NCBI RefSeq assembly: GCF_032854445.1
Contig: NC_088306.1
Span: forward strand, 14,129,386-14,193,385
Length of the DNA: 64,000 nt
DNA from: Liolophura sinensis
Lineage: Eukaryota; Mollusca; Polyplacophora; Chitonida; Chitonidae
Reading direction: 5' to 3'
This document shows, piece after piece, positions 2,617-63,149 of this stretch; position 1 is the first letter of the stretch; each line of letters opens with the position of its first letter. Made by a program: the position numbers and the translations under genes. The notes beneath the pieces were generated by a model. That model was not told where the DNA came from. It searched no databases and was given only the letters and a program-made list of their open reading frames with translations.

Positions 2617-5600
2617 TCAGGTTAAACACCCATCTACGCTGACGTTCTCTTTGATCTGGTCCAACTCTTGCATACAAACGCTGTCACTAAGCTTGTTAAG
2701 TTTTGTACTGAACAGCTGATTCGTTTCTTCGACGACAACATTTTCTTGGCATTGTGTCAGTGCGTTTGCAGAGCTATTTTGGTCCTGCCTTGACATATCC
2801 AATGCGCTTGATGATCGACTCGTTTTTGTCAGGGAGCGCCTCAACTTCATCCACCAATCAGAATCGCCTCTTTCAAGGTACGCGTGTGTCTTCAGAAACA
2901 ACGACAAATCTTCGTCTTCGATACTGGACGGAATGAGATCTTCTGTCGTGATAACAATGAGACTGTTATTGTTTTCTCTCAAAGTCCTTTCGTAAGCAAT
3001 TCTCAACAAAAACAGGGGCCATTCGTTGGCCACAAAAGCTGTGGACAATACGAGAAGCACGTATCGACAACTAGACACCCCGTGAACCATATTGTCTTGA
3101 ATCGGATCACCGGGAATGAAATGGAGATCGGACAGCCTGGTACTGAAACCGTCTGCCTCCAGTTTACACCTTAGGTCATAAAAAGACCATTGAAAATCGC
3201 TGGCGTCGTATGCGATGTAGACATCATATAGACAACTTTGTGAACTTTCCGAAACACTAAGTGACTGCAGACATATATCCCACCAAGGCGATGACTCTTC
3301 AATGTTGGAAGACCATTCTCTCGCACTTGTAAGATATTTCAACTTTTTGTCCCTTAACACATCCGACTGTCCAATACATTGGTAACGCCGTGTTTTGTAA
3401 AACCGACCGAGACGTGTATTAATACTCCGTAGATTAGTCTTGTTGGCGACGTCTGCAGTGAAAATAACCAGGAAGTGTTTCTTTGCGCGCGCTTTTGTCA
3501 AGCCTTTGTCCAATGCCAAACGACACACTTCCTCCGACAAGAATTTCTCCGTAACCACAGCTACCATTCTAAAGCTACATTTCACCATGTGGGATAAATT
3601 TTGAACACGGGATAAACCAGCAATGAAATCTCTACATGTCACTACTACCAAATTGGAGCGATCATCAGACTGAAAAATAGGAAGAAGTTGTTGCTGGCAG
3701 AATTCGTAATCCTCTTGAGCAACAGCTACAAGTATTTTGATCACTTCGTCTTTCTCGGGATTCGTTGACCTGTCGAATAGTCTGACCATGAAATACGAAT
3801 AAACCAAGGCCCTTAACTCCAGCCTGAGGCAGTAACATACGAAACCTATGATGACTGCCATGACGAAACATGATGTTATCGACATGCAGACCTGGAAATA
3901 CGTCATGTTTTTTCCTCTAACGCAAACAAAGTCAGCGTCGTTCACGCGAATCATAACAGAAATGGTTCTGTCTGATTTTATGCAAAGCACGTCGCTCACG
4001 TCCTTCACACGGTGTTCATTGATCAATAACCATGACTTCAACCACACACTGTGGCAATCACAGTGAAACCGGTTGTTGCTGAGAGTTATCTCCCTTATCC
4101 TGTCCAGTTTGGTGATTAATCGGGGGAGAGTTTGTAACGCGTTATGGTCTAAATACAAATGGCGTAACTTTGGCATGGCCCGTAATACTTCAGGGGGAAG
4201 TTCCTCTAGATTGTTATTAGACAAGTTCAAAGTTTCTATATGACTTAAATAGTCCCTAGGAGTCAGCACCGTTATGTTGTTGTCATTCAAGCGCAAAGTC
4301 AACGTTTCTTTGGGTATATCCTGCGGCAGAGTAACTTTTTGCGAATTCCCACAATCAACCAAGCGATGAGTACTTTGCGCGTACCTGTAGCAGCGACACC
4401 TAGCTGGGCACGTGACATTTACTGCTTGGCAGTACAGGTTGCTGGATTTTTGAGATAATAAAGATTGTTTGAAAAATTCCGCTGGACCAGAGCATTTCCA
4501 CTCCGTGAAGAAGTATTCATCACCCAAAAACGTGTCTTGTGAAGGCGTAGTGTGAACTGAAATGTAATTTAAAAAGTCCACCATTTTGCAATCACACCAA
4601 AGTGGATTTTCTGACAGGTCGAATTTGAAATATATGAGAAGCAGGCGGAATTTTCTTTCCATCTCCATCTCATCCCTGTCGCTGACATTACTTAAAATCG
4701 GAGCTGGAATTGAAGAAATATTGTTACCAGATAGATTTATCGTGCGCTTGTAGTCCTGACGACGCTTCAGCAAGTTTTCTCGAGTTTTGTCATAGTCGTC
4801 CGTTCGTGTAGCTGCTGCGTCATTGAGAATAAAGGTAAAACTATGGATATTAACAGCATTAATTGTATCCAGTAGAGAATTAAATGTGATGTTACAACCG
4901 GATAAATCGACTAAAGTGATTCCTGTTAGGAATATCACACCTTCCGGTAGATAAATCAAGGGATTGTTCTGTAAGTATATTTCATGAAGATAATCGCTGT
5001 CCGTGGGAAGACTGTCTTGATGAATAAAGGTAATCTCATTGTTTTCCAGGTGTAAAGTTCTGAGCTTTCGTAGAGAAGAAAAACTGTCTTCTTCAATCCT
5101 CTTCAGCTTATTGTTGGCAATATTCAAAATTCGAAGCTCTTTTAACGTCCGAAAAATTTCGACATTTATATGTTGAAGCAGGTTTTTTCGTAAATCCAAA
5201 GTTTGCAATTTGCACTCAGACCCTAAACAAAACTGGGGAATACTTCGTAAATTATTGTCACTAATATTTAAGTATGTTAGATCTGTCAGATTTATAAACG
5301 TCTGGGTGCCGATCAATTCTAAACCGTTTTTCACTAACGATAACACATTTAGAGATCCACGAAAGGTAAAATTGATCAGGGACGTTATGTTGTTATGGTC
5401 CAAAACCAGAACAATAGGTGAGGCGTCATCAGGCAACCCTACGAGAAAACTCTTGCGAATTTTCATCAGTTGCAAAGGCATGTGCGTGTGTGATTCCGTG
5501 TCCCACGGGAAATTTGGTGGTGATGTGAAGGAATTTCTGGAGAGATTTAAGTACTGAAGATGTGGAAATCGTTGAAGAAAATTCTCAGGAAGCTGCTCTA

Positions 5601-6252
5601 GTGAAACATTTGAAAGTCTACACATTAACACGTTTTCATATTTGCCTGCTGACGGGAATAATTCGTTAAATCGGTCCTTCAAATTAATGTTCTCGACAGC
5701 AAACGTTTCCAAGTGACGGGATATGACCCTGTGAATACCTCTTGACCTGGGAGGTTCTACTTCCGTCTCATTCAAGATAACCGTAGAAGCGTTTAAACGG
5801 CCCAGAAGCCTATGGACATCAGTGGTTCTGATCTTGCAGTGGTTGAGTGATACCTCGTATAAAGGCATCAATCCAACAGAACAGTTAAGAGCCTCAAATT
5901 TCACCAACTTTGCCACCGGACATTCAACACGTATTGAGGTCAGTTTATAAGATTGCTTAGCATTGACGTGCTCTGCCCCGGTTCCGGGTTGCTTAGACGG
6001 ATAAATAATATCACAGAGGTCAAAAGAGCACGCCACTGATAGGTTGTCCTGAGCCACACGTATGTAAACAACTTCCTGTTTCAGAGACTTTCCCGAGTAT
6101 GAGGAGTGGGGACGTTTATATGAAACGTTGTAACGCGTCAGAGAAAAACAGAGGCTTTCCGAACGTCCACTGGTAATCCAAAATGCCGTTAACATGAAGA
6201 ATGCAATCCATGACGTCACGAATTCATTTCCGCCCAGGTGCTTCAGTTCCAT
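2617..6252 (-). CDS. Twin-TIR Toll-like receptor A (single coding exon)
   Basis: This 1211-residue type I membrane receptor should bind ligand outside the cell and recruit TIR adaptors inside. Residues 1-31 look like a signal peptide. Leucine-rich repeats run from about 214 to 550 and end in an LRRCT (NPLWCDC at 549). An LRRNT follows (CPARCRCY at 615), then a short LRR block (640-730) and a second LRRCT (CDCHSVW at 731). This two-cluster layout is the multiple-cysteine, Toll-like type. The membrane segment is about 785-809. The tail holds two TIR-like domains. TIR1 (836-997) is degenerate: its box 2 reads CRDFIAGLS, lacking the BB-loop proline, and its box 3 is PWW at 989. TIR2 (1007-1137) is canonical: YDVYIAYD, FIPGDP and DWW. 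A Ser-rich tail of about 75 residues follows. The ATG at 6252 is preceded by a splice acceptor (AG 6277-6278), so an untranslated leader exon is likely. A two-codon upstream ORF (ATGGGATAA) lies between that acceptor and the start. Family assignment is certain; ligand and adaptor are unknown. Confidence 0.95.
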   Translation of the reverse strand: MELKHLGGNEFVTSWIAFFMLTAFWITSGRSESLCFSLTRYNVSYKRPHSSYSGKSLKQEVVYIRVAQDNLSVACSFDLCDIIYPSKQPGTGAEHVNAKQSYKLTSIRVECPVAKLVKFEALNCSVGLMPLYEVSLNHCKIRTTDVHRLLGRLNASTVILNETEVEPPRSRGIHRVISRHLETFAVENINLKDRFNELFPSAGKYENVLMCRLSNVSLEQLPENFLQRFPHLQYLNLSRNSFTSPPNFPWDTESHTHMPLQLMKIRKSFLVGLPDDASPIVLVLDHNNITSLINFTFRGSLNVLSLVKNGLELIGTQTFINLTDLTYLNISDNNLRSIPQFCLGSECKLQTLDLRKNLLQHINVEIFRTLKELRILNIANNKLKRIEEDSFSSLRKLRTLHLENNEITFIHQDSLPTDSDYLHEIYLQNNPLIYLPEGVIFLTGITLVDLSGCNITFNSLLDTINAVNIHSFTFILNDAAATRTDDYDKTRENLLKRRQDYKRTINLSGNNISSIPAPILSNVSDRDEMEMERKFRLLLIYFKFDLSENPLWCDCKMVDFLNYISVHTTPSQDTFLGDEYFFTEWKCSGPAEFFKQSLLSQKSSNLYCQAVNVTCPARCRCYRYAQSTHRLVDCGNSQKVTLPQDIPKETLTLRLNDNNITVLTPRDYLSHIETLNLSNNNLEELPPEVLRAMPKLRHLYLDHNALQTLPRLITKLDRIREITLSNNRFHCDCHSVWLKSWLLINEHRVKDVSDVLCIKSDRTISVMIRVNDADFVCVRGKNMTYFQVCMSITSCFVMAVIIGFVCYCLRLELRALVYSYFMVRLFDRSTNPEKDEVIKILVAVAQEDYEFCQQQLLPIFQSDDRSNLVVVTCRDFIAGLSRVQNLSHMVKCSFRMVAVVTEKFLSEEVCRLALDKGLTKARAKKHFLVIFTADVANKTNLRSINTRLGRFYKTRRYQCIGQSDVLRDKKLKYLTSAREWSSNIEESSPWWDICLQSLSVSESSQSCLYDVYIAYDASDFQWSFYDLRCKLEADGFSTRLSDLHFIPGDPIQDNMVHGVSSCRYVLLVLSTAFVANEWPLFLLRIAYERTLRENNNSLIVITTEDLIPSSIEDEDLSLFLKTHAYLERGDSDWWMKLRRSLTKTSRSSSALDMSRQDQNSSANALTQCQENVVVEETNQLFSTKLNKLSDSVCMQELDQIKENVSVDGCLT

Positions 6253-6360
6253 ACGTGGTCACGTCACTTATCCCATCTGGAAAACATGAATTCGAAGAGA
6301 AATCAGCTATTGGTCGATTTTAAAAAGCCTGTGATGTGGACATGTACTTATTATGCATAT

Positions 6361-15299: not shown

Positions 15300-18200
15300 T
15301 CAAACGTCGGTTGCAATTTTGCTTATATTAATAACATCTGGCACTGGGCCTAAAGAATTATGGACGGCACTATCGGGTCCTCTCACCATAGCAACGGTCA
15401 ACTTTTGCCACCAATCAGCATCGCTTTGGCGTAAATATGCATGAGTGAGCAAGTACGTTTGAATGTCTTCCGGAAGGTCCATTATGTTTGTACCCTCTGA
15501 AAGAAGAACAATGAGAAAATTCCGGCGTTCGTTCACCGATATTCTATGTGCAGCGCGAAACACAAACATGCAAACGTCGTCTTGTGCGAACTGCTCGGAA
15601 AGCACCATGAGGACGTAGCGCGATTTTTGTAGTGACGCTACAATCAGGGCGTCCAAGGGTTCTCCAGGCAGGAAGTCGCGGTCGGGTACACACGTTATCC
15701 AATCGTTTACCTCGAGTTTTGCAGTCACGTGATTGGCCACCCAGTTCGAGTGCGCGTCACCACAGGCAACGTACACGTCGTAGCAGCACTGATGGTTTAC
15801 CTGCGGGATTGATTTTGCTACGCGCCTCTGCCAAGGTGCGAGTCTACCATGTTCCGTGTCTTCATCGAATGACCGAGCAGCCGTAGAATAGATTAGCTTG
15901 TCTCTCAAAAGCTTGTCAGTGTCCTTGATAGAGGATTGAGCGCGAAGAAAACGACGAAGTGATGCACCTTTTATCAGACTGCAGTTGAAGGACGGTCTTT
16001 TCAATATCACAATTCTGCTGGTACGTTGAGAGAGAGACAATTGCATCGCTCGCTCTAACCCAATCACACACAGCTCATCCTCAAAAAACTGAGCCGACAA
16101 AACAATGACGATTTTGGTTGAATTGTTTGTTAACAGCTCGATATTGTCATGGAACGACAGACCGACGTAGAAATCCTCCAAATGTAAAGCCAGAGACGTA
16201 AGCAAATGAGAATCACACAAGGGTTCAATCACGTTCTCTCGTGCCCATTCCCAGTCATTTGAAGCGGCTATTACAAATAGGTCAATCGCTTTGGCTTCGT
16301 GAGCCAGACCCTTATGTCTTAAGAAGCGCAAATTGAATCTGACAAAAAGCAAGGCTTTTATTTCCAGTCTGAAGCGATAGAGTACTGCAGCTAAGACAAG
16401 TGCTACAGCAGTCACGAAGCAAATATACAGAGTTATATCTCGCTTCCAGTCAGTATTCTTCGGACAGGTGAAGTCTTCGTCAGGGACTTCGACGATCTTA
16501 AAGAGTTTATCTTCTGTTACAGCACATGTTAAATTGCTCCATTCTTCGATGGTCTCTCTCTTCGCCACCAACCATTGTTTCATCCACGCCGTCTTACAGT
16601 CGCATCGAATATGATTGTCTGTTAGCTGCGCATGCGTAAGTTTCAGTGATTGTATCCCGCGTGGCAGTGAAGTGAGGAGGTTGTGCTTTAGGTTAAGGAA
16701 CCGCAAATTTGGCATCATTTCAAAGAACTCGTCTGTTATCGAGGAAATTTGGTTGTACGACAAATCCAGTTCTATCAATCTATTTCGATATTCTATTCTT
16801 CCGAGAGTAGTGACGTTGTTGTTGTTTAGTCTAATTTTGATTGTATCCGAGGGAATCTCGTTTGGAAATGACGTGTGCAGGCCTCGTGAGCAATCCAGCA
16901 TGAGATCACTCCTGTTATAGAAGGTATAACACTTGCATCCACTAGGGCACTTGGTCGAATTTGTCGGACACGTGAGATCGCTAGGGTTTAAATCAAGTAC
17001 AAGTTTACCTTCGTGCTCAGGTGGACTGGTACAGCGGATCTCCTTAAACAGGTATTCAGTGCCGTCGAAATTACCTTTCGAGCGTTCAGAGCTCACGTAG
17101 TAGATGAAAGGTGACAAATGACAAGAACACTCAATGGGATTCTCTCTCACATCAAGATGATAATAAACAAGAAGTAAACGATACTGTTCCATATCAAACA
17201 TCGGTATACTGGTGATTCCATTGTCTTTCAAGTTGATGAACTTCTTATATGGCTTGGTTCTCTTAAATCGATGAGTGCTTTCGCGGTCCGCAGATATAAA
17301 CGAAGACCTGTCTCCAACCCCAGACAAAAAGATCTCCTTCGGAACTTGGGCGAGTGTTTCGTTTAACGTTTCCAGCGAAATCTGGCAACCTGTTAAATCG
17401 ACTTTAGCAATATTTGTAGTGAAGACATCTAACGGAATTTCCCTCAAGGGATTGTGACTCAGGACGACTTCGTTTAAGGCGACTGTGTCCTTTGGAAAGC
17501 TGTCGGATGACACATCCTCCAGTAAGTTGTTTTCCAAATGTAGTTTTTCTAGTTTTAACAAAGCTTGAAACGTTGCTGACTCAATGCCTGTCAGTTTGTT
17601 GTTATTGAGGACCAAACTTTCCAGCTCTGGAAGATTGTTAAATGTCGTCCTGCTTAAAGATATCAAATTATTCTTGGCCAAATTGATCTCTCGGACTTCC
17701 TTCAAACCGTTGTGATTGAGTATTTCGGGACGAATCATTGTCAGATTGTTCATGCTTAGGTCCAGTTTTTGTAATCCAGTGACGTTAGCTAATGTGTCAT
17801 CGTCGATGTCTACAAGACCAGTGTCCCGCAAGGAAAGCAACTGAATCCAGCCATGGAATCTTCGACCGTGTAGATTTCGAAGGGGGTTATGTTCCAGATG
17901 AAAAGACCTTCGAAACAGATTTGGTGCTACGTTGATGCCTACTGCAGTTGTGTACTTTGTGTTGAAAATATTCGTGCGAGACAGATTTCGAGGTAGCTCC
18001 ATCGAATCCTGAAACCACGGAAACTGTGGTGGTGGCTCCGTTAAGAAATTCTGCGCCAGATCTAAAGTCTGAAGGCGGGGCATCCTGGAAGAAAAATCAG
18101 ATGGGAGTCTGTGGATTGACATGTTGTGGAATGCGACTTCTGCCATCGACATGAAAACATCTGGTCGAGGAAATAACGTTTCTATCCTGTTAGTACTGTT

Positions 18201-18728
18201 TGTATTGGTCAAATACAAGGAAACGACTTTCTTCAGGCCTGGAAATGTCTGGTTCAAGTCCATGCCACGGCCCGTGGGCAACAACTCCGTATTAATTCCT
18301 GTTATGACCCTTAAATCGTACATTTGTCCCAGCCAGTTCATGTCGTCTATACCGACCTTGCAGTTGTGAATTTGAACTTGTAGGACGCTTTTCGTGTAAC
18401 CAATCAAATTAGGCCCTTCAAAAGCCACTCTTTGACGCCTCATGCATTTCAAAACTAGCGCGATGTGGTTTATTGTATCCCCAGGTCCTTCCGGGTAGCA
18501 CAACGACAAAGCGTCCCCCATGTCAACCCAACAGTCACGTGACGTGTTGTTTTTAAATAAGGCTCCCTCACTTATGGCCACGGGCACCTTGTTTCCGTGT
18601 ACATGGTAAAATGAAGCGGGAAGGATTCTACATTTGAGCTTATCCTCACATTTTGGAAGAGATTCACCGTTCTGAGCTTCAGTCATTGAAAGTAGTGATA
18701 TCAACACAGATATGGTGACCGCCCACAT
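15300..18728 (-). CDS. Twin-TIR Toll-like receptor B (single coding exon)
   Basis: This 1142-residue receptor has the same architecture as the one at 2617-6252. It has a signal peptide (1-18, cleavage near TEA/QN), LRRs from about 195 to 530, an LRRCT (NPIECSC at 530), an LRRNT (CPSGCKCY at 594), a short LRR block (625-705) and a second LRRCT (CDCKTAW at 709). The membrane helix is about 764-786. TIR1 spans about 813-974, with DLFVIAASND at box 1, LEDFYVGLS at box 2 (no BB-loop proline) and PW at 965. TIR2 (981-1112) keeps CYDVYVACGD, the canonical RDFLPG at 1017 and DWWQKL at 1105. The two receptors are clearly paralogous but diverged along their whole length, so this is an old duplication. 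The ATG lies just inside an exon whose acceptor is at 18750-18751 (TTTGTTTTAG), implying a separate leader exon. The sequence gives no evidence on ligand or adaptor. Confidence 0.95.
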   Translation of the reverse strand: MWAVTISVLISLLSMTEAQNGESLPKCEDKLKCRILPASFYHVHGNKVPVAISEGALFKNNTSRDCWVDMGDALSLCYPEGPGDTINHIALVLKCMRRQRVAFEGPNLIGYTKSVLQVQIHNCKVGIDDMNWLGQMYDLRVITGINTELLPTGRGMDLNQTFPGLKKVVSLYLTNTNSTNRIETLFPRPDVFMSMAEVAFHNMSIHRLPSDFSSRMPRLQTLDLAQNFLTEPPPQFPWFQDSMELPRNLSRTNIFNTKYTTAVGINVAPNLFRRSFHLEHNPLRNLHGRRFHGWIQLLSLRDTGLVDIDDDTLANVTGLQKLDLSMNNLTMIRPEILNHNGLKEVREINLAKNNLISLSRTTFNNLPELESLVLNNNKLTGIESATFQALLKLEKLHLENNLLEDVSSDSFPKDTVALNEVVLSHNPLREIPLDVFTTNIAKVDLTGCQISLETLNETLAQVPKEIFLSGVGDRSSFISADRESTHRFKRTKPYKKFINLKDNGITSIPMFDMEQYRLLLVYYHLDVRENPIECSCHLSPFIYYVSSERSKGNFDGTEYLFKEIRCTSPPEHEGKLVLDLNPSDLTCPTNSTKCPSGCKCYTFYNRSDLMLDCSRGLHTSFPNEIPSDTIKIRLNNNNVTTLGRIEYRNRLIELDLSYNQISSITDEFFEMMPNLRFLNLKHNLLTSLPRGIQSLKLTHAQLTDNHIRCDCKTAWMKQWLVAKRETIEEWSNLTCAVTEDKLFKIVEVPDEDFTCPKNTDWKRDITLYICFVTAVALVLAAVLYRFRLEIKALLFVRFNLRFLRHKGLAHEAKAIDLFVIAASNDWEWARENVIEPLCDSHLLTSLALHLEDFYVGLSFHDNIELLTNNSTKIVIVLSAQFFEDELCVIGLERAMQLSLSQRTSRIVILKRPSFNCSLIKGASLRRFLRAQSSIKDTDKLLRDKLIYSTAARSFDEDTEHGRLAPWQRRVAKSIPQVNHQCCYDVYVACGDAHSNWVANHVTAKLEVNDWITCVPDRDFLPGEPLDALIVASLQKSRYVLMVLSEQFAQDDVCMFVFRAAHRISVNERRNFLIVLLSEGTNIMDLPEDIQTYLLTHAYLRQSDADWWQKLTVAMVRGPDSAVHNSLGPVPDVINISKIATDV

Positions 18729-18943
18729 GTTTTAACACTTTCTTCCGTCCTAAAACAAAGATATGAAAACATGAGTTAAAACAGGCTTTACGTTATATAC
18801 TCTACATATTGATTCAGTATTTAAATCACACCATTCTTTCATTCTTTTATATTGTTTAGATGTTTGAGAAAAATTTAGATGAATTCAAATAAAAGTAATG
18901 GCAATCTAAAGCACTATTAAATCAATTTACATAACACAGCCCC

Positions 18944-24599: not shown

Positions 24600-25275
24600 A
24601 CAACCCCAAACATAATGCTTGTTGTACAACAGTCCACATGACATCCTCAAACATCATACTTACTGTACAACTGTCCATATCTCAACTCCAAACATCATAC
24701 TTACTGTACAACTATCAACCCCAAACATCATACCTACTATACAACTGTCCACATGACATCCCCAAATATCATACCTACTGTACATTTCTTCATATCTCAA
24801 CCCCAAAGCATCATGTTTACTGTACAGCTGTCCATATGACAACTCCAAACATCATAATTACGATACAACTATCAACCCCAAACATCATACTTACTGTACA
24901 ACTGTCCACATCTGAGCCCTAAACATCATACTTACTGTACAACTGTCCACATCTCAACTCCAAACATCATACTTACTGTACAACTATCATCCCCAAACAT
25001 CATACTTACTGTACAACTGTCAACATCTGAGCCCTAAACATCATACTTACTGTACAACTATCAACCCCAAACATCATACTTACTATACAACTATCAACCC
25101 CAAACATCATACTTACTGTACAACTGTCCACATCTGAGCCCTAAACATCATACTTACTGTACAACTGTCCACATCTCAACTCCAAAACATCATACTTACT
25201 ATACAACTATCAACCCCAAACATCATACTCAGTGTACAACTGTCTATATGGCAACCCCAAACATCATACTTACAG
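24600..25275. repeat. Minisatellite of 33- and 40-42-bp units
   Basis: About 18 copies of 'caaacatcatacttactgta' plus 'caactatcaaccc' or 'caactgtccacatctgagcc'. Long and short units alternate irregularly. On the minus strand most units contain GTAAGTATG, a strong splice-donor match. Confidence 0.9.
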
Positions 25276-25837
25276 TACTTTGTAATCTTTTACTCATGGG
25301 TAAACAGGGTTACTCCAACATTCAATGTCATGATTATACTTGGAAAAACTTCCTGTGACGTCAGACTTCCTAAACTCCGATAATGTGGTCCATAAAGCCC
25401 ACCTTAGAATTCAAAAGTCTGAACGCCTTTAAAGAAATGAAAGTATATTCATTCATTGTTTTAAGTGGTCTATGTGGTGATAGGTACCTTCATTTTTAGA
25501 GGTCTTTTCCTTGACAGAAAAATCGAAAGCAGTACTGAATATTTTCAACTTTTCACCCTTTTTCATCAGAACTAAATATAATTTTCATATTTTCTCCATC
25601 TTTAATCACATATTTTCTTGAAATCTATACTATTTTCCTTCGTGCCTTTGTGGACCAATAATTTTGTTGAATAAGAGGAAAATGCCATCACCCTGTAGCT
25701 GTTGAACACCTGTTGTGACTCCTCAGAAGTCAGCGTCAAATAAAACATCCTGTTACGATTTGAATTTTGGTCCTGAGTGTTCGAACTGGATGTCAATCTG
25801 ACCTCGATCTCCAATGTATAGATTTTGTATGTATGTA

Positions 25838-33849: not shown

Positions 33850-34452
33850 CTACCGATCCGCCCTCTCGTTCCTTTCGATATTAATGTGGCCTGGAATCCA
33901 CTCAAGGCACACATAAATGTTCTGATAGAAAAGATAAGTAAAACAATATAGTATCTCAAGTACAACATTGTTAGGATTTTCCCCAGCCTGGTTGATCAGA
34001 GCAAATAATGTACTTTCAGAGTCAGTAAATATTACACATTTTAAGGAACAAAATTCTTCTTCAAATTTTAACGCCAGAAGGATAGCAACTATTTCGGAGG
34101 TGAAGACAGTAACATGATCAGATAGACTATAAGACTTTTCATATTTGATTTCATGGACAAAGAAGGCCGCGGATGTTCTTCCAGATTCTGGACATTTCGA
34201 CCCATCTGTGTAAATGTGGAGATAATCATACCAGCTTGATCCAATATGTCCTTTAGCACACAATTCTGTGTTTTTGATAGGGTCAGATTTCCTTACTTTC
34301 GAATGGAGCTCTGTAGATGTAAAAGGAAGCCTCAGCTTCCATGGAGGGAATGGAAATTTTACTTCCTTTTGGACAACTGACTCATCAAGCTGCAATTCAT
34401 CTCGAGTGGATTGAGCGCGAACACTAAATGTTTCTTGGTCTTCGAGTTTCAA
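33850..34452 (-). pseudogene. LINE RNase H domain
   Basis: About 200 open codons carry the RNase H pattern: YIYTDGS-like (HIYTDGSKCPESG), the ETxAI-like helix (TSEIVAILLALKF), FTDSESTLFAL and WIPGHINIERNERAD. All acidic positions of the fold appear kept, so this is the least decayed part of the element. Confidence 0.82.
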
Positions 34453-34457
34453 TTTTT

Positions 34458-35130
34458 CTAGTTTTCTAGTTCAGAATGCCAAGTCACAGTTAAAATATCA
34501 GAGGCAGGATTATTATGACTTGTTAACAGAGATAAATAATACTTAAAACTTGTCATTTTCAGTCTAATCCATGTTGGGAGTACACCTGTTGTTACCTGCA
34601 GTATCTGTAATGGGGTAGTCCTCATGGACCCAGTAAGTATATACATAAAGCCTGTCCCTGTATAGAGTCAAGCCTCATCTCCAGTGTACGAGAGGCAGAG
34701 TTGTACAACCCCGCTCCATAATCCGTCCTAGATCTAAGATCAAAGATTTATAAAGTTTACGTAACGCATTTCTATCCCCCCCCCCCTCCCCAGAAGTGCC
34801 AGACACACTTTTCATCAAATTAATTGCTGACTGGCATTTGGCCACCACACCATCGGTAAGAAGATGGCTGTAACGCGGGCTTACCGGGTTTACACACCGG
34901 TACTACTACCGCATGTTTCCATGACAATGGTAAGGTCATCTTCATCCACACAGAATTCATAAGCATTAAAATGAGATTTAAGAAATTATCTGGCATATTT
35001 TTCAACATGGTGTACAAAATTCCATCCAGGCCGGGGGATGACTCTTTTGTCTGCCGTAGTGCCCCTTTAAGTTCCTAAGAAAAAAATCATCATTAATAGG
35101 TAATTCATGGAAGGAAACGTTTTGATATAT
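34458..35130 (-). pseudogene. LINE reverse-transcriptase remnant lacking its catalytic core
   Basis: The start of the RT fingers is seen (PGWN...VPVCKPGKPALQPSSYR). After SSYR, where the family continues into the palm, the sequence passes directly to the region downstream of the RT (GSMRTTPLQILQVTTGVLP). The palm with the catalytic aspartates is absent. A run of eleven Cs near 34779-34789 marks the damaged segment. Confidence 0.75.
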
Positions 35131-53205: not shown

Positions 53206-54000
53206 ATGGTTAACGGACTGATTTTCATGGCATTTTTTGTGCTTTGTTTAGCGTTGGATCAAGGACAAATCCGTTACATTCTGGTGTTCATCGGGATCAG
53301 AATGTATGGAATTTTAAATGATTCTTCGCCATGTGAAATGGTTGTCAGGTACATGACGGGAAAAGTTGAGTGGATTTTGATGAAAATTTTAGAATTAATC
53401 CATATCATTTTGGTGGCGAGTCGGATTTGGATCCGGATCCAGGAATTTCTTACGCGGATCTTCACTTTTGCTTGATGACGTATTTAAATGAGTTATTGAT
53501 GGATTTCCGATTTTGATGACATTTCACGCACAGCTTGGCTTTGGCACTAAGCTTTATCGTGCTGATCGAGAATGGGGAATTTTTCAAACGATTTTTCGCC
53601 TCTACCAGATATGTATGTATGTATGCATGCACCTATGTATGTACGTGTGTGTGTGTGTGTGTATGTGCGTGTATGCATGAATGTATGTACGCATGCTCAG
53701 TGCTGGTCGCCAAGACAGTCTAGAGCACGTTCCTTACCAGATATGTCTGTTTAAGCGCAAATTTTGGAGAACAGCTATGCATCAATTTTAATAAAACTTT
53801 GTGGAAGCACACTTTGTCCATTTAATGCGTGTATGCATGTATGTATGTACGCATGCTCAGTGCTGGTCGCCAAGACAGTCTAGAGCACGTTCCTTACCAG
53901 ATATGTCTGTCTAAGCGCAAATTTTGGAGAACAGCTATGCATCAATTTTAATAAAACTTCGTGGAAGCACACTTTGTCCATTTGATCTTCAGTGAAGTGT
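53206..54000 (+). repeat. Probable interspersed repeat with a 'ggatccggatccagg' core
   Basis: The stretch around 53420-53450 ('gatttggatccggatccagg' then 'aatttcttacgcggatcttc') resembles a repeat I recall from other invertebrate genomes. It includes the 160-bp duplication. The 89-codon frame at 53206 is probably part of it, not a gene. Confidence 0.4.
53666..53985. repeat. 160-bp tandem duplication
   Basis: Bases 53666-53825 are repeated at 53826-53985 with only a few changes (for example gtttaagc versus gtctaagc, actttgtgg versus acttcgtgg). A (gt)n/(atgt)n tract lies just before it at 53600-53690. Confidence 0.9.
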
Positions 54001-57837: not shown

Positions 57838-57978
57838 TTATGTTGACGCTCCCGCACGTTCTACTGTTGGGATCTCTTCCATTCGACAGCTCACACAGCC
57901 CCTCCTTGACAGATTCACAACAGCTGCGATGAAGAAGACTAATCCCATCACACCAAAATAACCACCATTCACGGCAAA
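57838..57978 (-). CDS. SLC19-like exon 4 (last coding)
   Basis: The acceptor is TTTTTGCAG|TTTGCC. The exon codes 46 residues (last membrane helix [16 protein letters not shown], then a short Cys-containing tail) and a TAA-type end at 57838. No clear polyadenylation signal was found in the next 400 bases. Confidence 0.88.
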   Translation of the reverse strand, partial: FAVNGGYFGVMGLVFFIAAVVNLSRRGCVSCRMEEIPTVERAGAST

Positions 57979-60900
57979 CTGCAAAAAGACCAAATTATAC
58001 AAAGCTGATAAACGGTTGTTCAAAGCCGTGCCCTAAAAATGTTCACTTATTTGTATGTGGTTGATCAGGTTTGTGGGTGGTGAAAACTGGAGTGCCCAGA
58101 GTAAATCGGAGTGCTCTGAGTAATCAGAGTGCCCAGAGTAAATCAGAGTGCACTGAGTAAACTGGAGAGCCCAGAATAGACTGGAGTGCCAAGAGTAAAC
58201 TGGGGAGCCCAGAGAAAACTGGAGTGGCCAGAGTAACCTGGACAGCCCAGAGTAAACCACGCACCTTCACCAGGTATATGTACCCGGCAAACCTCCTGAC
58301 CTATTGCCACTGCCGAGACAGTTAGAGGGCTGGATATTCAAACACTCACCTCAACTGGCCAACGGCTTGATGGTCGTTGCCAAAAATTGCAAAAAGTTTA
58401 CAGCCAAAGTTGTGTGGGGGGGCGGGGGGGCTTACAAGCCTGTGTTGTAGAATGGTTTTCAAGGGGAGGGATTTACAAACCTGTATTTCTTCTAGAATGG
58501 TTTTCAGGGGGAGGGATTTATAAACCTGTATTTGTTGTAGGGCTGTTTTCAAGGGGAGGGATTTACAAACCTGTATTTGTTGTAGGGCTGTTTTCAAGGG
58601 GAGGGATTTACAAACCTGTATTTGTTGGAGGATGGTTTTCAAGGGGAGAGGTTTATAAACCTGTGCTATGTGTCAGATGGTTGTCAAGAAGAGGAGCTTT
58701 ACACATACCTGTGTTGTTATAGGGGCATTCAGTCCTCTCTTGTCCACCACAATGACTGTCAGGATGGTTTCCAGTAGCAAAGCTATAAATGTATTGAAGC
58801 CAAAAACAAGACCAAATCTTTGAGCCTCCAAGTAACGGGCTATCTGAAATCTAAAATCCAAAATCCACAGTCTGTTAGTACACATCAAAGCAAGCTGTTA
58901 TTTGAACACCTTTCACATACATTCACATACAAAAGTTGACACGACGAGTCTCTTTCAGTACTTTAAGGTTCTACTGGATTATAGGCTGAAATGCAGTTCA
59001 TCACCTGGATTAAACATTCACGGGTAATATTAATTAACAACGATGACAACCTACATTTTAAAAAGTAATATATGTCACATGTAATTTTTTTCATCTTTGC
59101 TACCTTAACTGCAAATGATGGAATAAGGATCATTTAGCACTAGTTCATAAAATTAAGGTGTGTCAGCTCAAGAAAATAATGTGAAAACATTCAGATAGAC
59201 TGTTATGCTGTTCCATGAATTGATAAACCAAGGACTTCCTCAAGCCAAGTGCCATTCCAAGTGCACAATAGTGCCATGCACATGTCTGGTGCATCCTACA
59301 GTATCATGTCTGGTGCAGTGAGACTTCCTCAGTGGTGTGTATAATGCATTCACACATCTGCATAGTACAACGGGCATTCACAAGTACCATAGCAGCATGA
59401 CGGTGCACTAGGACTTCCTATAGCAGCAGGCTTGGTGCACTTGGAATATGCCCAGTGTTATGATTTCTGTACTGGGGCTTCACCTGGTACACTGAGAATT
59501 TCTGGAGTACCATGTCTGGTGCACTACAGCTTCTGTTTGATGCCTGGCGCACCAAGGCTTTTCCAGTACCTTGTCTGGAGCACTGGGACTTCTCCAGTAC
59601 CATGTATGGTGAACTGGGGCTTCTCCAGTACCTTGTCTGGAGTACTGGGGCTTCTCCAGTACCATGTATGGTGAACTGGGGCTTCCCCAGTACCATGTCT
59701 GGAGAACTGGGGCTTCTCTAGTACCATGTATGGTGAACTGGAGCTTCTCTTGTACCATGCCAGGTTCACCTAGACTTTTCCAGTACCATGTCTCGTTCAA
59801 TGGGGCTTCTCCTGTACCATGCCAGGTGCACCTAGTCTTCTCCAGTACCATGTCTGGTGTACCTAGACTTCTCCAATACCATGCCTGGTGCACTCGGGCA
59901 TCTCCAGTACCATGCCTGGTGCACTGGGGCTTCTCTCGTACCATGCCTGGTGCACCTAGACTGCTCCTGTACCATGTCGGGTGCACCTAGACTTCTCCAG
60001 TACCATGCCCTGTTCACTGGGGCTTCTCCAGTACCATGTATGGTGAACTGGGGCTTCCCCAGTACCATGTCTGGTGAACTGGGGCTTCTCTAGTACCATG
60101 TATGGTGAACTGGGGCTTCTCTTGTACCATGCCAGGTTCACCTAGACTTCTCCAGTACCATGTCTCGTTCAATGGGGCTTCTCCTGTACCATGCCAGGTG
60201 CACCTAGTCTTCTCCAGTACCATTCTGGTGTACCTAGACTTCTCCCGTACCATGTCTGGTGCATTTGGGCATCTCCAGTGCCATGCCTGGTGCACTGGGC
60301 ATCTCCAGTACCATGCCAGGTGCACTAAGGCTTCTAAAGCAACATTTCTGTTGCACTGGGGCTTCTCTAATACCATGCTGGGTGCACTGGGACTCCAGTA
60401 GTGCCATTTCTAATACATTTGGACTTCGTCACTCAGTGTCATGCCTTGTGCATTAGGACTTTCTTGTGCCTGATTACACTTGTTTAAATGTTAAATTTAT
60501 TTTATTTCAAGAATTTTTTTGGCTTACACAAAGGCTGTTAGTTTTATAAAGCGGGTGAATTTTACGGCAAATTTTTTTGTCAAGCATACTCACGTAGCCA
60601 CTGTTATCACCATCTGATAGGCTGCTCTGAAGAACACATACAGGCAGTATGCCACCCAGATGTTGGTGGTGTATGCCATGACGACCAGCACTGCACAGTT
60701 CATCAGGGATATCGTGCCCAGCAGCAGTTCCCCATAGGCTGTCCAGTTGGCAGGGATCAGCCCGATAAAAAATGATGACAGTGCTCCTGAAAAAATTATC
60801 AACAAATACTGCCATTAGTACCCTTTACACGGCTCTGTGTTTTAAGCACATAACTACCCTCTCTCTGTAGAATCCCTGTTTCACTCTAGCTTACATTGGC

Positions 60901-63149
60901 TCAGTTTGTAAGGTGCATTTACATATTTGTAGCCACAGCGCAGTACAGTTTCTTCAGGTATGTCACGGATACATGTGTGCTACAATCTATTCTATCCAAT
61001 CCTGCCCATTAATCCTTACTGACAATGACATACTTCAAGGTATACTTCAAGTCTTTTCTTCCTTTTATTCAGTTGGGGGTGGTTCTATCACTCAACAATA
61101 TTTTTTTCAAAATATATGTCATGAAATTTCAAAAATTAAAATTCAATTTCAATGATATAAGTGTCCTTGTTAATAATGGGTCACCATCATATGAACAATA
61201 TATAAGATACAGTTATACTTATAACAGTTGAAAGGAGGAGAAAGCAATAACTACAGAGTCAACAGCAGGGACATTCAATCTTTTTCTAAAAATATGTGTA
61301 CTTATGTTTTTGAGATTTTGTGTTTTAGAGGAAACTGTAGTTATATTGTTAGCTGGAATTTATGGGCCATATTTTGGTGCAAGGGTGTAGAGATTTTTTT
61401 TTCACCTCATTACTACCTTTATGTGAAATCTATATATTCATGCAATTATATTTATCTATAAAACGTGTTATCTATAAAAATCATTACAGCAGAATATGTT
61501 CCATAGAGTTTATCTTGCAATCTGAACATTTCGGTGTACTTTTCCTGTTCATAAAAATCTTTTGACATACTGCAGTTAACCTGACTACATATTTACCTGA
61601 CTACATAAGCCCTGGTGCTACACGTGTTTGCAATTTGCTACTATTTAAGAACTCACATGAACAGTTGGAATAGAACCCTAGCTGAGATAAACTGGCAAGA
61701 GGCTGGTTTCACTGGTTAAAGGGGACCATTTGCCAATTATCATGCTGCCATTGCTATTGTGGTTTTACTCTCTATGCCGTAGTATATTTTTTATATACAA
61801 AATTGGCACATATTGTTACACATGATCTTTCCATGATCTTTCTGATGATAATTGCATCAGCCTTTTTTCTGTTTTCTCCACTTTTTACTTTGTTATAAGG
61901 TATAGCCTGACAGCACGAGATGAAAGGAACTCTGCATTCCTGCGAGACAAATCTTACCTAACAACGTAGCTGCTGCCTCTATGGCCCCATTGTATTTTTT
62001 GGGATTGGATCGATGTGGATCCACCTCTGCCCACAAATTCTGCACATAGTTTCCCACTTGGAAATTCCCACAGGAGGCAATTGCCCACCATATCGACCAA
62101 GCCAGTAAGATTTTTCGGGAGTAAGTTGAGCGAAAATCTCTCCACAGCGTGACAATGACATCCTTGAATTTCTGCCAACATAACAGTTTTTCCTTTAATA
62201 AATGATCTTGATCATCCTGGGGTGTTTTCATGCTTTCTAGCGGTCCGTCTACGGCAACAGATCCCGAGGAATTCTGGGAATACTGATCGCTTTGCAAAGA
62301 CCAGGCAATGGAGCTCGTGTCAACATCCCCGTAAAAAGGAAAGGGGAGATAACTACTGCGTCCTCCATCCAAACTGGTCGTAGATCCAATGCCATTTGTT
62401 GGTGATCTGGATCGAGAACTGAAGTCCTCGTTTGGGCTCATGTTTACCGGACTATTAGGTAAGTCTGATCTAGGGGTTTCTGGGAAGGCTGTGTACGACG
62501 GATTCACCTCTCCATTTTGACTTTGTCGGATCTGGTCAGCGGTCCTCAATTCTCGCGTGTTCCTCTCTCTACGATGGAAGTAAATTGACTGCTGCACTGG
62601 CGGAAGGCAAAGAGCAGCGATAAGCGAGAGAGACACGCTGGCTAAGGAAATAAAGTTAAGGCTATACAAGTCTGTAACTTCAAACGATATCAAGAGTTGG
62701 CCTATCACAGCTGCGATGAATTTTCCCATGAGGATGGCACTTCGGGTGTACCCGGCTACTTTTTGATAATGTTGGGAGTCGACCACAGCATAAATGTAAG
62801 CGTAGTAGGCGATTTCCGTGGCTGTGCAAAAACCATAAATGAACTCCATGAATTGCATCGTGAGGACCCCACGACCAAATAGTAGCATGATCCATGTGCC
62901 TACGTAGCAGCAGGCCTCGAAGATAATCACAATCTTGTAGCGTAGCAGGTCTGTAAGCAAAAATGTGGGGATCAAGGCCACCAGGTAAGAATAGGTCCAG
63001 ACCGGATACACCTGGTTATACACCTCTGACTGTGTCAGGTTGACTGGAGGCTGTGTCAGGTATGGTGTCAGATATGGTTCTGATGGCCGCATTGCCTTCA
63101 GAAACCCATAAACACATACCACGGCTGCACAAACTTTCCAAGATGCCAT
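57838..63149 (-). CDS. SLC19-family vitamin transporter (thiamine/folate carrier-like), four exons
   Basis: Coding exons 63149-61958, 60786-60594, 58850-58709 and 57978-57838 join in frame (phases 1, 2, 0) to a 555-residue major-facilitator-type carrier. The start is in a good context (AACCATGG). The N-terminal half holds six helices with family-typical stretches ([11 protein letters not shown] at 21; [16 protein letters not shown] at 105; [10 protein letters not shown] at 134). A long Ser-rich cytoplasmic loop follows (about 191-345). The C-terminal half begins at [14 protein letters not shown] and contains [28 protein letters not shown] and [18 protein letters not shown]19 members move thiamine or reduced folates across the plasma membrane; sequence alone does not tell which substrate here. 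The loop is longer than in the human thiamine carriers as I recall them. The introns carry three minisatellites, described separately. Confidence 0.92.
58083..58258. repeat. 19-bp minisatellite (SLC19 intron 3)
   Basis: About nine diverged copies of 'actggagtgcccagagtaa' run head to tail between exon 4 and the 45-bp array of the carrier gene. Confidence 0.85.
58430..58726. repeat. 45-bp minisatellite made of splice-donor copies (SLC19 intron 3)
   Basis: Six intronic units follow the exon-3 donor on the minus strand. Each reads roughly 'aacaaatacag|gtttgtaaatccctcc'. The genuine boundary, 'aacaacacag|gtatgtgtaaagctcc', is recognisably the same sequence. Donor-like AG|GT junctions fall after 58709 (real), 58661, 58616, 58571, 58526, 58481 and 58440, spaced 48, 45, 45, 45, 45 and 41 bases. 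The unit length is a multiple of three, so both strands show 15-residue periodic reading frames; these are by-products, not genes. Confidence 0.9.
58709..58850 (-). CDS. SLC19-like exon 3
   Basis: The acceptor is GGATTTTAG|ATTTCAG. A second AG six bases on would break the frame and lose the family's TFQIA motif, so I chose the first. The donor is ACACAG|GTATGT. The 142 bases code TFQIARYLE to NAPITTQ. The donor end of this exon is the apparent seed of the 45-bp minisatellite just beyond it. Confidence 0.9.
59240..60465. repeat. 31-bp minisatellite with higher-order 372-bp period (SLC19 intron 2)
   Basis: The unit is 'cttctccagtaccatgtatg' plus 'gtgaactgggg'. It is well ordered from about 59400 to 60400, with decayed units on both edges. 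The block near 59711 recurs at 60083, an offset of 372 bases or 12 units, with few differences, so one round of block duplication is visible. On the minus strand the unit has no stop trinucleotide in any frame. It therefore throws up long overlapping reading frames with a 31-residue period that should not be called genes. Confidence 0.92.
60594..60786 (-). CDS. SLC19-like exon 2
   Basis: The acceptor is TTGATAATTTTTTCAG|GAGCAC and the donor GCTAC|GTGAGT. The 193 bases code [15 protein letters not shown] through MVITVA, two to three membrane helices. The phases fit both neighbouring exons. Confidence 0.9.
61653..61795 (+). repeat. Interspersed repeat family C copy (SLC19 intron 1)
   Basis: 'gctgagataaactggcaaga', 'accatttgccaattatcatg' and 'ttttactctctatgccgtag' are in family order. 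It lies in the intron between exons 1 and 2 of the carrier. Confidence 0.75.
61958..63149 (-). CDS. SLC19-like exon 1
   Basis: This exon codes 397 residues plus one base, and ends at TTAG|GTAAGA (a strong donor). It contains TM1-6, the whole central loop and the start of TM7-8 ([11 protein letters not shown] at the end). Confidence 0.92.

Follow-up and report, generated by a model that had tools for sequence, protein, structure and literature searches.

A minisatellite probably copied from the exon-3 boundary of an SLC19 gene in a chiton

Directly behind the third coding exon of an SLC19-family gene of the chiton Liolophura sinensis stands a tandem array in which each unit opens like a 5′ splice site. 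The locus raises the question of whether the array was copied from the exon boundary that it adjoins and whether its donor-like sites have any part in splicing. Minisatellite-like tandem duplications of exon-intron boundaries, termed "mirages," have been described from amphioxus in Adh3 and in the globin genes BflGb6 and BflGb9 (PMC3087553). The chiton gene was analyzed within a window of 64,000 nucleotides, to which all positions refer unless a survey locus is named; in sequence motifs a slash marks the exon-intron junction or its counterpart in a unit.

The gene lies on the minus strand and consists of four exons that join into one open frame of 556 codons, including the stop. Coding exon 1 (61958-63149) is open from the ATG to the donor TAG/GTAAGA and matches PF01770 at 62511-63143 (E 7.8e-84) and at 61947-62228 (E 5.3e-21). 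Exon 2 (60594-60786) matches the same profile at 60590-60793 (E 8.0e-12), as does exon 3 (58709-58850), which ends with PITTQ in phase 0, at 58703-58852 (E 6.0e-12). With PF01770 (Folate_carrier) above the cut-off over exons 1-3, the gene belongs to SLC19; the profile stops with exon 3, and exon 4 (57838-57978) lacks a Pfam match of its own. That last exon is an in-phase open frame of 46 residues plus the stop and contains the last hydrophobic stretch. The protein translated from the joined exons aligns with the solved structure of thiamine transporter 1 (chain 8z7z, E 1.9e-119), and the match extends into exon 4, where the 26 residues on the N side align with the transporter and a hydrophobic 19-mer (mean 1.94) is present. 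Intron 3 is 730 bases long and in phase 0, and the array takes up 269 of these bases directly after the donor.

The array (58708-58440, minus strand, 269 bp) is made up of six units, of 48 bp (unit 1), 45 bp (units 2-5), and 41 bp (unit 6), and CAG/G stands at the start of every one. Unit 1 (58661-58708) starts at the real donor, CAG/GTATGT. It is followed by unit 2 (58616-58660, CAG/GTTTAT), unit 3 (58571-58615, CAG/GTTTGT), unit 4 (58526-58570, identical in sequence to unit 3), unit 5 (58481-58525, CAG/GTTTAT), and unit 6 (58440-58480, CAG/GTTTGT), the terminal ACAACACAG of which equals the final 9 bases of exon 3. A degenerate tail (58404-58439), whose end was placed by eye, begins with CAG/GCTTGT and passes into a C-rich stretch. 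The original prediction of a 45-bp tandem array right after the exon-3 donor was confirmed by TRF, which reported 58443-58664 with a period of 45 bp, 4.9 copies, and 89% match, and by the exon-3 limits (58850-58709) and the CAG/G at all unit boundaries. The regular 45-base spacing that it had described holds between the inner units but not for the first (48 bp) and last (41 bp), and the roughly six decoy 5′ splice sites that it had counted are five CAG/GT sites (58660, 58615, 58570, 58525, and 58480), the sixth, at 58439, being CAG/GC. AG/GT is thus kept in many units, as in a mirage, with CAG/GT at five of the six downstream junctions and CAG/GC at one. In the identity matrix of the six units, units 3 and 4 are identical, all other pairs within units 2-6 agree at 80-84% (unit 6 at 80-82% with units 2-5), and unit 1 is only 67-73% identical to the others. 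The mirage pattern of homogenized inner units with a divergent edge is therefore present through unit 1; unit 6 is shorter, not divergent.

The boundary and the units had been called the same sequence; they are similar only: across the six junctions, 10-15 of 18-19 exon-side columns and 12-18 of 26-27 intron-side columns match. This similarity crosses the junction. At periods of 90 and 135, the repeats reported by TRF reach 58723 and 58724, which is 15-16 bases inside exon 3. When the 222 bases of the array at 58443-58664 were used as a BLAST query against the whole genome, the search returned the query itself and 58623-58724, at 74% identity over 102 bases (E 2.8e-6), a match that extends 16 bases into exon 3. 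Both genome-wide matches fall at the SLC19 locus, so the array looks local, and no copy of its unit was found elsewhere in the whole-genome search, in which the best candidates were scored and very common words were skipped. The exonic portion of the unit is proposed to stem from the array-homologous 3′ end of exon 3 at 58709-58724 (minus strand), which is delimited by the TRF periods 90 and 135, BLAST, and an anchored test.

In that test, the comparison was extended from CAG/GT. The intron side scored 23, against a maximum of 13 in the window's other 137 CAGGT contexts, and the joint score was 41, against a maximum of 21. The exon-side score of 18 was reached by none of the 137 window contexts and by 22 of 1500 shuffles; in 43 other loci it was equalled in 2 of 320 CAGGT contexts (256 distinct) and in 3 of 1118 AGGT contexts. 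With the donor bases held fixed, the score was reached by 45 of 2000 shuffles (40 + 10 bases) or by 7 of 2000 (24 + 26 bases). A free local match of the last 40 exon bases to the array, without register, was not significant, 153 of 2000 shuffles being as good. The exon-side likeness amounts to about 16 bases, including a one-base gap. We conclude that the intron-side homology is secure and that the exon-side homology is good, if modest and not beyond doubt. TRF, BLAST, and the anchored tests agree that the unit holds the exon end and the intron start of the adjacent boundary, as in a mirage, with a modest exon part, and the similarity above chance that was to be expected from the prediction is borne out for the joint score and the intron side (0 of 137) and for the exon side in register (0 of 137), yet not for the exon side when register is ignored.

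These scores also bear on the alternative that an unrelated intronic minisatellite happens to abut the donor, its CAG/GT and its exon-side resemblance being due to chance plus the donor consensus. Such arrays are common here, two more lying within SLC19 itself (59506-60391, 31 bp x 28.7, intron 2; 58084-58257, 19 bp x 9.2, intron 3), and the exon-side similarity is short and, by the shuffles without register, within chance. The homology begins in register at CAG/GT, however, with a joint anchored score above those of all 137 window contexts, and both BLAST and TRF run across the junction into coding sequence. Moreover, in the survey scan described below, neither the exon-2 donor nor the acceptors of exons 2, 3, and 4 had a junction-spanning match to their own introns, so the other two SLC19 arrays do not look like boundary copies; the exon-1 donor scored a low 17 in that scan. 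A chance neighbor is unlikely on this evidence, although it deserves some weight.

If the boundary and the array are homologous, the protein suggests the direction of copying. The end of exon 3 codes for PITTQ/F, and at the aligned place thiamine transporter 1 (8z7z) shows EITTQF and thiamine transporter 2 carries RGLNLPVSIQF; we take both aligned chains to be human. Because the exon end encodes ITTQF, a run in common with thiamine transporter 1, it is old coding sequence that should predate the array, and exon 3 is the likely source. The reverse derivation, in which the donor moved into a pre-existing minisatellite and the exon-3 end was taken from the array, would likewise leave sequence common to the exon end and the units, but it sits poorly with an exon end that encodes the ITTQF of thiamine transporter 1, and we consider it extremely improbable. 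Most simply, the array units would be copies of the exon-3 end. The in-register homology across the junction and the conserved ITTQF support the predicted origin, in which the exon end and its donor were amplified in tandem to give the array.

Our preferred reading, to which we assign a probability of roughly 0.64, takes the array for a decayed mirage, a boundary-spanning minisatellite that is removed whole with the intron while only the real donor is used. A segment across the exon-3/intron-3 boundary, with about 16-22 exonic and about 25 intronic bases, would have been tandemly duplicated, and the copies would then have expanded and been partly homogenized inside the intron by slippage or unequal exchange. 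The original boundary would have been kept under coding and splicing constraint, which could explain why the boundary and unit 1 now differ from the inner units; unit 1 would be an edge unit left out of homogenization, as described for the amphioxus globin mirages (PMC3087553). Of the series, the spliceosome would use only the donor at 58709/58708, which comes first and is the strongest, and the array would leave with the intron. We infer the direction and mode of the duplication and the silence of the decoys.

The splicing potential of the decoys was scored with a 5′ splice-site weight matrix and by pairing with the U1 5′ end, and for both the ranks weigh more than the values. By this matrix the real exon-3 donor scored 10.1, three decoys 6.3, two decoys 3.0, and the GC site -0.3; the corresponding values for U1 pairing were -10.2, -9.1, -5.6, and -5.8. 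All five GT decoys have T rather than a purine at +3, and three of them have G at +5. Beyond the array, intron 3 has two further GTs with high scores, AAG/GTGCGT at 58264 with 9.0 and GAG/GTGAGT at 58349 with 11.2. The latter is the top-scoring donor-like GT of the intron and exceeds the real donor (10.1), so what the matrix can decide is limited. On the other hand, the weak exon-2 donor of SLC19 itself (60593, TAC/GTGAGT) is surpassed by three decoys both in the matrix (6.3 versus 5.7) and in U1 pairing (-9.1 versus -7.7), so the decoys are not too weak in principle. The unit-by-unit scoring proposed with the original prediction is thus divided in its outcome: three decoys rank above the exon-2 donor, but all rank below the exon-3 donor, and 58349 and 58264 are higher.

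The stop codon predicted for read-through is confirmed. An in-frame TGA lies in the first unit at 58675-58673, after 11 read-through residues and 36 nt into intron 3; whichever GT decoy were used, translation would end at this TGA, and the protein would lack exon 4 and with it the last hydrophobic stretch. The distance from the TGA to the new junction would be 12, 57, 102, 147, or 192 nt, depending on which of the five GT decoys is used. According to the 50-nt rule for NMD, decoy 58660 (12 nt) would escape and the other four (57-192 nt) would be targets.

The units could on these grounds act as competing 5′ splice sites, with the length of the array tuning what fraction of transcripts is truncated or targeted to NMD. 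Five CAG/GT sites are available, three with a G at +5 that outscore the gene's own exon-2 donor; their use would lead to the TGA and to loss of exon 4, with all but the first being NMD targets by the 50-nt rule; and downstream repeat units have been reported as donors in the minisatellite of human IFI6 (PMC4526556). Against such competition stand the matrix scores of the decoys (6.3 or 3.0, compared with 10.1 for the exon-3 donor), the higher scores of two sites outside the array, U1 pairing that is weaker than at the real donor, and the amphioxus Adh3 and globin mirages, which reportedly leave splicing undisturbed (PMC3087553). We judge regulated competition to be quite improbable, and most likely the array is an inert intronic relic, as far as its sequence can tell.

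A further possibility is that a new exon or intron is in the making within the array. Its 45-bp units are multiples of three and bounded by AG/GT, read-through meets one stop, in unit 1, and from unit 2 onward the exon-3 frame is open for 108 codons; all five GT decoys preserve that frame. By simple arithmetic, however, a run of 15 codons will be free of stops in about half of all cases, and pyrimidines are scarce before the AGs of the array (0.41-0.59, versus 0.59-0.71 at the three real acceptors). A 45-nt unit is too short to form an intron alone. Even though a model of this kind has been proposed for the amphioxus mirages (PMC3087553), we hold such a role for the chiton array to be very improbable indeed. 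Intron gain of the Rogers type, in which the 3′ end of the intron would resemble the end of the upstream exon, was examined by aligning the exon end plus array to 58060-57940. The best local score was 16, and the alignment did not span the acceptor; without junction-spanning similarity at its 3′ end, intron 3 does not look born from the array.

Similar structures were sought in 43 loci around the best exon matches of PF00067 and PF07690, several pairs of which come from one gene. For PF00067, 30 of 99 matches were taken and 92 of 386 candidates scored; for PF07690, all 13 matches were taken and 8 of 417 candidates scored. The junction scan gives a zero to any site whose best local alignment does not span the junction and may therefore pass over weaker cases, and the exon ends are candidates and not annotated ones. 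Of the 43 loci, 35 supplied 50 donor candidates, and 60 acceptor candidates were obtained as well; none scored as high as SLC19 exon 3 (best 21 versus 34). TRF arrays near exons in loci L027, L035, and L036 were read by eye, and none seems to cross a splice site. Within the limits of the scan, boundary-spanning arrays are not frequent in this 43-locus sample.

Two SLC19-like fragments (8041-8281 in L007 and 2661-3005 in L008) lie about 15-20 kb past the window end, upstream in the sense of the gene, and have 81-88% protein identity to SLC19 across the stretches that match. They are likely to be decayed tandem copies of exon-1 sequence. As paralogues for comparison they were of no use: both match part of exon 1 only and carry stops, so they offer no exon-3 boundary to compare. 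L007 also has matches of 17-18 bases to the array, but with a best E of 0.22 these carry no weight.

The window holds other repeats and genes. At 24601-25278 there is a 41-bp minisatellite whose minus strand contains 12 copies of GTAAGTATG, which resembles a strong donor when paired with the U1 5′ end; the window has 13 minus-strand copies of GTAAGTATG in all, 12 of them within this array, and none on the plus strand. In the 430 bases before this minisatellite, no frame of at least 20 residues runs into the array. It is upstream, in the sense of the gene, of the open frame at 15303-18731, and our guess is that it may lie in a 5′ untranslated intron. That frame and another at 2620-6258, both long and on the minus strand, combine leucine-rich repeats with a TIR domain, as Toll-like receptors do. 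An RNase H domain at 33853-34470 (minus strand) is probably part of a retroelement, and at 53666-53983 a 160-bp unit in two copies with 98% match looks like a recent tandem duplication.

The chiton array is a real, somewhat decayed, boundary-spanning minisatellite in a mollusc. If it is what it appears to be, it would extend boundary-spanning minisatellites, or mirages, from amphioxus to a mollusc and would provide a case with a likely direction, the conserved coding end of an exon being the source and the array the product. It also gives reason for caution in reading a regulatory role into donor-like sites that recur next to an exon. A more far-reaching combination, that boundary amplification is recurrent in chitons as in amphioxus and that the SLC19 array is a live intermediate which can add 15-residue blocks or shift donor use with copy number, is very improbable.

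Among known systems, the minisatellite of human IFI6 (6-16) has a unit of about 12 bp. Two of its downstream units are reported to be used as donors (Turri et al. 1995, as cited in PMC4526556); the chiton array is likewise a minisatellite with repeated splice donors, but use is reported for IFI6, whereas the chiton decoys are known as sequence. The Rogers model of intron gain, as presented in PMC3087553 and with a potato RdRp case in PMC4974935, involves tandem copies bounded by AG/GT, as in the chiton array, and differs in that the 3′ end of the chiton intron has no junction-spanning similarity to the array. Tandem repeats at human exon-intron boundaries have also been discussed as a source of new introns (PMC2812944). 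The titles and abstract openings listed by searches of open-licence PMC papers yielded no report of a boundary-spanning array from a mollusc. The TSSK1-like gene of abalone has an intronic minisatellite with a 27-bp unit and variable copy number, again in a mollusc, for which the accessible text states no link to a splice site (PMC6905558), and in the corresponding text on earthworm metallothionein (PMC12783039) none of the intronic minisatellites is described as boundary-spanning. The closest relatives are the amphioxus mirages, to which TnC was later added and imperfect PGBD5 copies were likened (PMC3902484). Their units are given as 10-72 bp in Adh3 and 150-160 bp in the globin genes, with splicing reportedly unaffected and length unstable (PMC3087553). 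As described there, they have in common with the chiton array a tandem duplication across the boundary, AG/GT in many units, and edge units that escaped homogenization (PMC3087553); the chiton case differs in its molluscan host and in a boundary match that has decayed to 74% over 102 bases. In its boundary-spanning unit, its retained AG/GT, and its inner homogenization, the array behind exon 3 of the chiton SLC19 gene fits the mirages on three features.
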